Origin: Fusobacterium perfoetens
GTDB lineage: Bacteria > Fusobacteriota > Fusobacteriia > Fusobacteriales > Fusobacteriaceae
Length of the DNA: 64,000 nt
Direction: 5' to 3'
Assembly (NCBI RefSeq): GCF_021531475.1
Contig: NZ_JADYTX010000001.1
Location: 1-64,000, forward strand
Part shown: positions 28,204 to 41,549 of the stretch, piece by piece
Numbering within the stretch: the first letter of the stretch is position 1
Layout of the letters: each line of letters begins with the position of its first letter
The notes under the pieces: model-generated
The model's database searches: none
Seen by the model: only the letters and a program-made list of their open reading frames with translations
What the model was told of the DNA's origin: nothing
Position numbers and translations under genes: made by a program

Positions 28204-28310
28204 AGTACTGACATTGGAAGTACTGTAAAGATATGTTTGGCTGTAGGGTCTATTCTTAGGGAAACCTAAGGCATATCGAGGAAAGTGTTGGCTAACCTAA
28301 GATGTTAGCG
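28204..28310 (+). promoter_or_regulatory. Structured mRNA leader of the rpsM (alpha) operon
   Basis: The 201 bases between rpmJ and rpsM fold into several nested elements, all visible by eye. AGTACT (28204-28209) pairs with AGTACT (28219-28224). GATATG (28230-28235) pairs with CATATC (28272-28277), enclosing CTTAGG-GAAA-CCTAAG (28255-28270). GCTAAC (28291-28296) pairs with GTTAGC (28304-28309). CCTAAG also occurs in the last hairpin (28296-28301), so it competes for CTTAGG. TTGGCT, the start-codon context of rpsM, appears twice more in the leader (28237 and 28288). This suggests autogenous control, most likely by S4, which represses the alpha operon in other bacteria. Confidence 0.65.
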
Positions 28311-40262: not shown

Positions 40263-41258
40263 CTATAGGAAATAAGCTCCGATTTTTGCATATTCTTCAA
40301 CCATTTCTTCAGGCCAAACAGATGCTTGAACCTCTCCAATATGTAATTTTTCCAAGAAGAACATACAAATTCTTGATTGTCCTATTCCTCCACCAACAGT
40401 GTAAGGAAGTTCTCCATTAAGTAAAGCTTTGTGGAAAGTTAATTTTTTTCTTTCTTCAAGTCCAGAGATTTTTAATTGAGCATCAAGAGTTTCTCCGTCT
40501 ACTCTTACTCCCATTGATGAAAGCTCAAGAGCATGTCCAAGTACAGGGTTCCATACAAGAATATCTCCGTTTAAATTCCAGTCATCATAGTCTGGGGCTC
40601 TTCCATCATGTTTTTTACCAGATTCTAATGTTTTACCAATTTGAGAGATGAATACTGCTTTATGAATTTTAGCAATTTGGTCTTCTCTTTCTTTTGGAGT
40701 AAGATCTGGATATAAATTTTCTAATTCTTGAGAAGTTATGAATGTAATATCATGAGGTAATTTTTTTTCAAATATAGGATATTCTCTTAAAATATATTCC
40801 TCAGTTTTTCTTAAAGCTCTATAAATTTCTTTAACTATCGCTTTTAGAGTAGTCATATTTCTTTCTTCTTTTTTTATAGTTAATTCCCAGTCCCATTGGT
40901 CAACATACATAGAATGGATATTGTCTAAATCTTCGTCTCTTCTGATAGCGTTCATATCTGTATAAAGTCCTGAGTGATTAGGGAAGTTATATCTTTTTAA
41001 TGCCATTCTTTTCCATTTAGCAAGAGAGTGAATGATTTGAAATTCTTCTCCTTTATCCCATTTTGTATCAAATATAACAGGTCTTTCACTACCACTTAAG
41101 TCATCGTTTAATCCAGATGATCTTCTAACATATAAAGGTGCAGAAACCCTTGTTAAATTTAATTCATATGCTAATGTTCTTTCAAAGTAGTCTTTTATTT
41201 TTTTTATGGCTACCTCTGTTTCATATAGGTCTAGTTTACAATCGTAATCTTTTATCAT
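40263..41258 (-). CDS. asnA: Aspartate-ammonia ligase
   Basis: A 331-residue class II synthetase-like enzyme making asparagine from aspartate, ammonia and ATP. Diagnostic stretches are APLYVRRSSGLNDDLSGSERPV, HSLAKWKR, DMNAIRRDEDLDNIHSMYVDQWDWE and the C-terminal LPYTVGGGIGQSRICM. ATG 41258 is used because AAGGAG lies eight bases upstream (the GTG three codons earlier is rejected). It is preceded by an Asn-rich leader peptide and an attenuator, so expression probably answers to charged tRNA-Asn. Confidence 0.95.
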   Translation of the reverse strand: MIKDYDCKLDLYETEVAIKKIKDYFERTLAYELNLTRVSAPLYVRRSSGLNDDLSGSERPVIFDTKWDKGEEFQIIHSLAKWKRMALKRYNFPNHSGLYTDMNAIRRDEDLDNIHSMYVDQWDWELTIKKEERNMTTLKAIVKEIYRALRKTEEYILREYPIFEKKLPHDITFITSQELENLYPDLTPKEREDQIAKIHKAVFISQIGKTLESGKKHDGRAPDYDDWNLNGDILVWNPVLGHALELSSMGVRVDGETLDAQLKISGLEERKKLTFHKALLNGELPYTVGGGIGQSRICMFFLEKLHIGEVQASVWPEEMVEEYAKIGAYFL

Positions 41259-41304: not shown

Positions 41305-41424
41305 TAATAAAAAAGCCATTCGGTTGTACCCGAATGGCTTAATATCTTAAGAAGGTCGGGTACAAATCATTTTTAAGTGAAAATGGATTTGTACCTAAAG
41401 CAAATATTACTTAAGTCCAAATCC
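41305..41424 (-). promoter_or_regulatory. asnA transcription attenuator (alternative hairpins and terminator)
   Basis: Read on the minus strand, five segments can pair in two exclusive ways. Segment 0 is GGATTTG (41424-41418, leader codons 21-23). Segment 1 is GGTACAAATCC (41395-41385). Segment 2 is GATTTGTACCCGA (41368-41356). Segment 3 lies in AAGCCATTCGGGTACAA (41340-41324). Segment 4 is CCGAATGGCTT (41323-41313), followed by a T-run. 1:2 pairs over 10 bp and allows 3:4, a perfect 11-bp terminator. 2:3 pairs over 10 bp (TTGTACCCGA / TCGGGTACAA) and destroys the terminator. 0:1 pairs over 7 bp (GGATTTG/CAAATCC) and frees segment 2. Confidence 0.85.
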
Positions 41425-41484
41425 CAACATATTATTATTGTTATTATTTATTAAATCAGATAAAAATATAATATGCCCCTTCAT
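41407..41484 (-). CDS. asnA leader peptide with six consecutive Asn codons
   Basis: A 25-residue open reading frame with GGAGGAATT directly before its ATG (41484) and a TAA at 41409-41407. Residues 13-18 are six Asn in a row (AAT AAT AAC AAT AAT AAT). It begins MKGHIIFLSDLI and ends MLGFGLK. It lies between a good promoter and the attenuator hairpins of the asparagine synthetase gene, the classic design of amino-acid leader peptides such as TrpL and HisL. A longer frame from 41610 would start upstream of the promoter and is rejected. Confidence 0.88.
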   Translation of the reverse strand: MKGHIIFLSDLINNNNNNMLGFGLK

Positions 41485-41520
41485 AATTCCTCCAAATTTT
41501 TTAAACAAATGTATGCAAAT

Positions 41521-41549
41521 AGGATACAACTTTTTTAGGTAAAAGTCAA
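41521..41549 (-). promoter_or_regulatory. asnA leader promoter
   Basis: On the minus strand TTGACT (41549-41544), a 17-base spacer and TATCCT (41526-41521). Transcription would start near 41514, about 30 bases before the leader ATG. Confidence 0.75.

Follow-up and report, generated by a model that had tools for sequence, protein, structure and literature searches.

A putative leader-peptide attenuator for asparagine upstream of asnA in Fusobacteriota

The asnA Locus and Its Leader Region

The window analyzed here, i.e., the whole 64-kb stretch of Fusobacterium perfoetens DNA, carries asnA on its minus strand. The encoded aspartate-ammonia ligase scores 358.9 bits against the TIGR00669 cut-off of 292.8, and the gene is single-copy in this genome, in which no asnB-type synthetase was found above cut-off, leaving AsnA as the only asparagine synthetase that passes. 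Since AsnRS is encoded as well, the level of charged tRNA-Asn should be set by the asnA product or by uptake. The following elements were located upstream of the gene, including RNA segments numbered in the order of transcription:

41521 to 41549, minus strand: promoter, with -35 TTGACT (41549-41544), a 17-bp spacer and -10 TATCCT (41526-41521)
41485 to 41495, minus strand: Shine-Dalgarno region of the leader ORF, TTGGAGGAATT, including GGAGG ahead of the ATG at 41484
41407 to 41484, minus strand: leader peptide ORF, 25 codons plus TAA (41409-41407), MKGHIIFLSDLINNNNNNMLGFGLK
41431 to 41448, minus strand: six Asn codons in a row (AAT AAT AAC AAT AAT AAT), codons 13-18 of the leader
41418 to 41424, minus strand: segment 0, GGATTTG, leader codons 21-23, partner of segment 1
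41385 to 41395, minus strand: segment 1, GGTACAAATCC, partner of segment 0 or of segment 2
41356 to 41368, minus strand: segment 2, GATTTGTACCCGA, partner of segment 1 or of segment 3, comprising the stretch GATTTGTACC (41368-41359) and the antiterminator part TTGTACCCGA (41365-41356)
41324 to 41333, minus strand: segment 3, TCGGGTACAA, antiterminator partner, overlapping the 5' arm and the loop of the terminator
41313 to 41340, minus strand: intrinsic terminator hairpin of 11 bp, -18.5 kcal/mol, arms 41340-41330 and 41323-41313, followed by a T-run
40263 to 41258, minus strand: asnA (start 41258), aspartate-ammonia ligase (TIGR00669), the gene regulated in the present proposal

The original prediction, made from the letters of this DNA, had described a promoter at 41549-41521 and a 25-codon ORF with its own Shine-Dalgarno and Asn at positions 13-18, and both were recovered by direct reading and by script, the promoter being of the sigma-70 type. 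It had also opposed a 10-bp hairpin plus 11-bp terminator to a 10-bp antiterminator, and the helix lengths are indeed 10 bp for 1:2, 11 bp for the terminator (3:4) and 10 bp for 2:3. The additional 7-bp pairing that it suggested between GGATTTG in codons 21-23 and segment 1 (0:1) is present too and is kept in relatives.

Short ORFs preceded by a Shine-Dalgarno and containing at least five consecutive Asn codons occur once in the real sequence and were absent from all 40 dinucleotide-shuffled versions of the window. When the window was scanned for Shine-Dalgarno-preceded short ORFs with a run of at least three identical residues and a terminator behind, the asnA leader was the sole hit, and no further candidate leader for another amino acid was found within the 64 kb. 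Likewise, the asnS and weak asnB-like loci of the same genome are without an Asn-run ORF. AT-richness as the cause of the run was ruled out, as AAT and AAC codons are mixed and the frame is kept.

Proposed Mechanism

The region displays the features by which an amino-acid leader attenuator can be read from sequence, that is, a Shine-Dalgarno-preceded ORF with an Asn run upstream of a biosynthetic gene and a terminator between the two. From the sequence comparisons and folding models given below, which document the parts, their conservation and covariation, and a codon-by-codon switch in predicted folding, we hold it very probable that it is a ribosome-mediated transcription attenuator of asnA sensing charged tRNA-Asn.

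In this proposal, RNA polymerase would start just past 41521 and a ribosome would begin the 25-residue leader. With uncharged tRNA-Asn, this ribosome would stall in codons 13-18 and leave segment 0 (codons 21-23) bare; segment 0 would then pair with segment 1, segment 2 would be free for segment 3, no terminator would form and asnA would be transcribed. If asparagine is plentiful, the ribosome would reach the stop codon and cover segment 0, allowing 1:2 and the 3:4 terminator to form, and transcription would end about 50 nt before asnA. Translation of the leader in vivo, a response to asparagine and a transcript end at the hairpin are what we infer from these elements.

Folding of the Alternative Structures

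Equilibrium folding of the full leader was uninformative because the terminator always wins, and truncated transcripts were folded instead. For stalled states, the edge of the ribosome was placed 13 nt past the codon in the A-site, and the RNA of the window was folded from there through segment 3. As long as codons 13-16 occupied the A-site, the probability of 0:1 was 0.98 and that of 2:3 was 0.95; the probability of 0:1 was 0.85 at codon 17, 0.31 at codon 18 and 0 from codon 19 on, so that the predicted switch coincides with the end of the Asn run. The switch point likewise falls at the end of the run in three related leaders (L003, L006, and L013) and is weaker in another (L010).

With the ribosome at the stop codon, folding of the growing transcript predicts that 1:2 forms once segment 2 emerges (-14.3 kcal/mol) and is held until the last bases of segment 3, the final fold being 1:2 plus 3:4 at -30.5. 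In these models, the logic of the original prediction (0:1 with 2:3 when stalled, 1:2 with 3:4 at the stop) thus holds. At equilibrium, when segment 3 is just complete and the ribosome is at the stop, the RNA of the window still favors 2:3 (probability about 0.72), and termination would therefore rely on 1:2 forming first during transcription. In the stalled state, before segment 3 emerges, 1:2 beats 0:1, so that 0:1 needs either a head start or the cooperation of 2:3 to prevail. The stalled fold also contains, joining segments 0 and 1, a small hairpin around the stop codon (AAGTAA paired with TTACTT in L003), which a ribosome terminating there would melt.

The stalled-minus-stop difference was positive in all 34 entries folded, and exceeded that of 90% of shuffles in 18, the window sequence not being among these.

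Selection on Reading Frame and Pairing

Frame conservation was assessed in 18 sequences of the window-type leader. Segment 0 is found at a distance of 45, 48, 51, 54, 57, 60, or 66 nt from the ATG, in each case a multiple of three, whereas the spacings between segments 0 and 1 and between segment 1 and the terminator also include lengths not divisible by three. Length changes by whole codons are the pattern expected of selection on the reading frame, suggesting that the ORF is translated. The leader peptide itself is poorly conserved.

Pairing was analyzed in a 14-sequence alignment of groups g1 and g5. Helix 0:1 is paired in 98% of cells, three rows showing a GC-to-AU replacement on both sides; for the 2:3 antiterminator the share is 84-94%, one pair being changed on both sides and others by wobble. 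The corresponding figure is 90% for 1:2, where five g1 rows with GGGC use a register slightly different from that of the alignment, and 98% for the 3:4 terminator, in which four pairs have changed on both sides. When the partner was slid by one to three columns, the paired cells fell to 21-51%. Shuffles of the rows did not support every measure, and further pair types were not raised. In this alignment, the terminator covaries clearly, 0:1 and 2:3 modestly. The conservation of alternative pairing, on the loss of which the original prediction was to stand or fall, is thus found for 0:1, 1:2, 2:3, and 3:4, with compensatory changes in 0:1, 2:3, and 3:4.

Distribution in Fusobacteriota

Searching 98 Fusobacteriota genomes with AsnA and scanning the regions upstream identified asnA in 78, among which 34 genomes, belonging to two families, carry a leader with an Asn run; the run that the original prediction expected in relatives is kept in these 34. 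The carriers include all seven genomes of the window's genus, six of g5, all 11 asnA-bearing genomes of g3, all six of g14, as well as G002, G049, G053 and, in another family, G097 (MKTVVTSIANNNNL). Asparagine makes up 347 of 970 codons (36%) in the 32 tabulated leaders vs. 3.6% in AsnA. Each of these 32 leaders has an ATG start behind a Shine-Dalgarno, and AAT and AAC are mixed across them. In 32 of 34 leader entries scanned, a promoter of the form TTGACW, 17 bp, TANNNT precedes the ATG of the leader by 30-51 nt. An intrinsic terminator stands between the leader ORF and the gene in 34 of 35 entries; it is lost in a single g14 copy (L147:311-397, genome G056), together with the Asn run and the sequence between the two, so that MFKLITIFNNNNNT remains, without attenuator. 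This copy represents either a natural loss of the attenuator or an assembly fault, the genome being 62% complete.

On the AsnA protein tree, the leader label requires 4 changes compared to a mean of 28.6 after shuffling, and marks three clades. No f4, g4 or g6 genome carries the leader, nor do the g5 genomes with a different AsnA lineage. In a phylum-wide pattern search, the leader core was found once per genome, at asnA, in 15 genomes. An extra match to the g3 pattern in G046 corresponds to no short Asn-run ORF and was taken as chance. No plasmid copy of the leader was found, and the non-fusobacterial asnA loci fetched harbor no ORF with at least four consecutive Asn codons.

Two genomes (G032 and G035) possess two asnA copies each, every copy with its own leader; the second copy of G032 (L112, G032:C16:43355-44338) contains an in-frame TGA and retains its Asn leader. 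In one of the six g5 carriers (L219, G019:C8 119950-120799), an insertion of about 700 bp, partly masked, separates the asnA leader from its gene. The core of the leader remains intact upstream, and the insertion should uncouple or alter the regulation.

Alternative Explanations

The same terminator could be controlled by a T-box or a riboswitch, i.e., an RNA binding a tRNA or a ligand, to which the ORF would be incidental. Such an RNA governs asnA in Clostridium relatives, where the T-box model (RF00230) matched 7/7 loci tested as a positive control, and segments 0 and 1 are so conserved in sequence that they can resemble an aptamer. Yet none of the 98 Fusobacteriota genomes gave a T-box match at asnA, none was detected anywhere in the genome of the window, and no Rfam family reached its cut-off in the leader stretch, so that a T-box or another known RNA family was rejected there. 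Moreover, the frame, Shine-Dalgarno and Asn run of the ORF are maintained in lineages that have completely different RNA around it, and we give this explanation very little credence. There is an almost negligible chance that (AAT)n acts as a microsatellite prone to slippage and switches asnA by phase variation, not by asparagine sensing. The length of the run does vary between species, from 3 to 12 codons, but the runs are broken by AAC, AGC, GGC, and Cys codons, the lengths to segment 0 change by whole codons only, and terminator and antiterminator stay conserved; conservation of the frame led us to reject a microsatellite devoid of coding role.

A looser leader is also conceivable, in which a ribosome reaching the stop would still block the antiterminator while starvation for any amino acid, or the general rate of translation, would set the outcome. 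Untranslated RNA is predicted to fold like stalled RNA in most sequences, hence any failure of translation should raise asnA. Asparagine is nevertheless the residue enriched in the leaders of every lineage, making such a general sensor improbable compared to the attenuator sensing tRNA-Asn that we favor.

Diversity of Leader Architectures

The leaders of g3, together with those of G002 and G049, are built differently from that of the window. They comprise 30-49 codons, with up to 22 Asn, and their C-terminal part and the bases around the stop codon pair directly with the 5' arm of the terminator. This arm is paired upstream at 37-59% in stalled folds vs. 5-26% with the ribosome at the stop. 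The g3-type terminator is paired in 97% of cells with covariation at four pairs; the antiterminator, preserved in 90% of cells, covaries more weakly. A mutually exclusive antiterminator that depends on the position of the ribosome is hence predicted for both the window type and the g3 type, and is weak in g14. In the latter, segments 0 and 1 are conserved as GGATTTG and CARATCC, the predicted 2:3 helix is weak, and a pairing of GAGGGG with CCCCTC dominates the fold. In several leaders of g14 and g13 (L142, L143, L144, L149, L159, and L018), the codons after the Asn run, GAGGGG or, in L018, GAGGGATTTG, can pair with CCCCTC or CAAATTCCTC just before the terminator. Such pairings in g14 and g13 complicate the simple 0:1 model.

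In both architectures, the untranslated RNA folds mostly like the stalled RNA, with L011 and L150 as exceptions. An untranslated leader should thus, according to these folds, read through as stalled RNA does. We would tentatively go further and suggest, with somewhat less than even confidence, a class of asparagine attenuators special to Fusobacteriota. Antitermination would be the default and termination would be imposed only by a ribosome finishing the Asn-rich peptide, in at least two unlike RNA architectures (a 0:1 relay in g1, g5 and probably g13, and a pairing of the leader tail with the terminator arm in g3). The Asn-run leader, either older than its RNA context or of repeated origin, would do the job performed by the T-box at asnA in Clostridium.

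Relation to Known Attenuators

The trp leader has four segments and the his leader six, and both terminate when they are not translated. The asnA leader shares with these enteric leaders (Rfam Trp_leader and His_leader) a short ORF rich in codons for the end product, its own Shine-Dalgarno, an exclusive choice between antiterminator and terminator, and a biosynthetic gene downstream. It differs by the amino acid, asparagine, by the phylum, Fusobacteriota, and by its five segments, among which the finishing and not the stalled ribosome would disturb the first helix. The original prediction, which saw here the Trp/His principle, was right in kind, the parity being predicted to differ, as a finishing ribosome would free segment 1. 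The reversed parity, if true, implies that blocking the initiation of leader translation should raise, not lower, asnA, which would separate this attenuator from trp and his. The covariance models Trp_leader, His_leader, Leu_leader, and Thr_leader gave no match at cut-off, nor even at an E-value of 1, in the leader stretch.

Leader peptides for other amino acids have been described, among them those for Trp, Leu, Ile-Val, and Cys of Actinobacteria (PMC1262725). A computational survey with Fusobacteria among its genomes proposed the attenuator candidates uORFC-8-2 (cysS) and uORFC-13-1 (aroF), which similarly combine codons for the sensed amino acid with a terminator and concern other genes, amino acids, and phyla, its main text being without asnA or asparagine (PMC8632094). 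In Firmicutes, His leader peptides replace T-boxes at hisS/hisZ of bacilli (PMC2965389), a situation that resembles ours in that a leader peptide takes the place that a T-box has in relatives at genes of the same function; the genes differ, and asnA, asparagine, and Fusobacterium are absent from the main text of that study. The T-box of Clostridium asnA (RF00230) has the same gene, the same expected signal, uncharged tRNA-Asn, and the same antitermination output, but its RNA senses the tRNA directly, without a ribosome. Thus, the same gene, and presumably the same signal, would be served by two sensors in two phyla, providing a clean example of one gene and one signal read by a T-box in Clostridium and by a leader peptide in Fusobacteriota.

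The original prediction knew of no such asnA leader in the phylum, and our search of the open literature, whose silence is no proof, found no description of an Asn leader peptide for asnA, or of such a leader in Fusobacteria, either. The mechanism is known and appears new for the amino acid and for the phylum. Asparagine would join the short list of amino acids sensed through leader-peptide attenuation, in what is apparently, judging from the open literature, the first such attenuator of Fusobacteriota, a phylum in which gene regulation has been little studied.

A T-box survey counted zero in its two Fusobacteria/Thermotogae genomes (PMC2494555). Clustered T-box-like matches below cut-off occur in three Fusobacteriota genomes without asnA (G042:C2:81267-83719, G043:C4:351595-354050, and G046:C177:19521-25550) and represent possible tandem T-boxes. 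Finally, the window encodes an S4-Fusobacteriales ribosomal protein leader (Rfam RF03133, 65.1 bits) at 28223-28283 on the plus strand.
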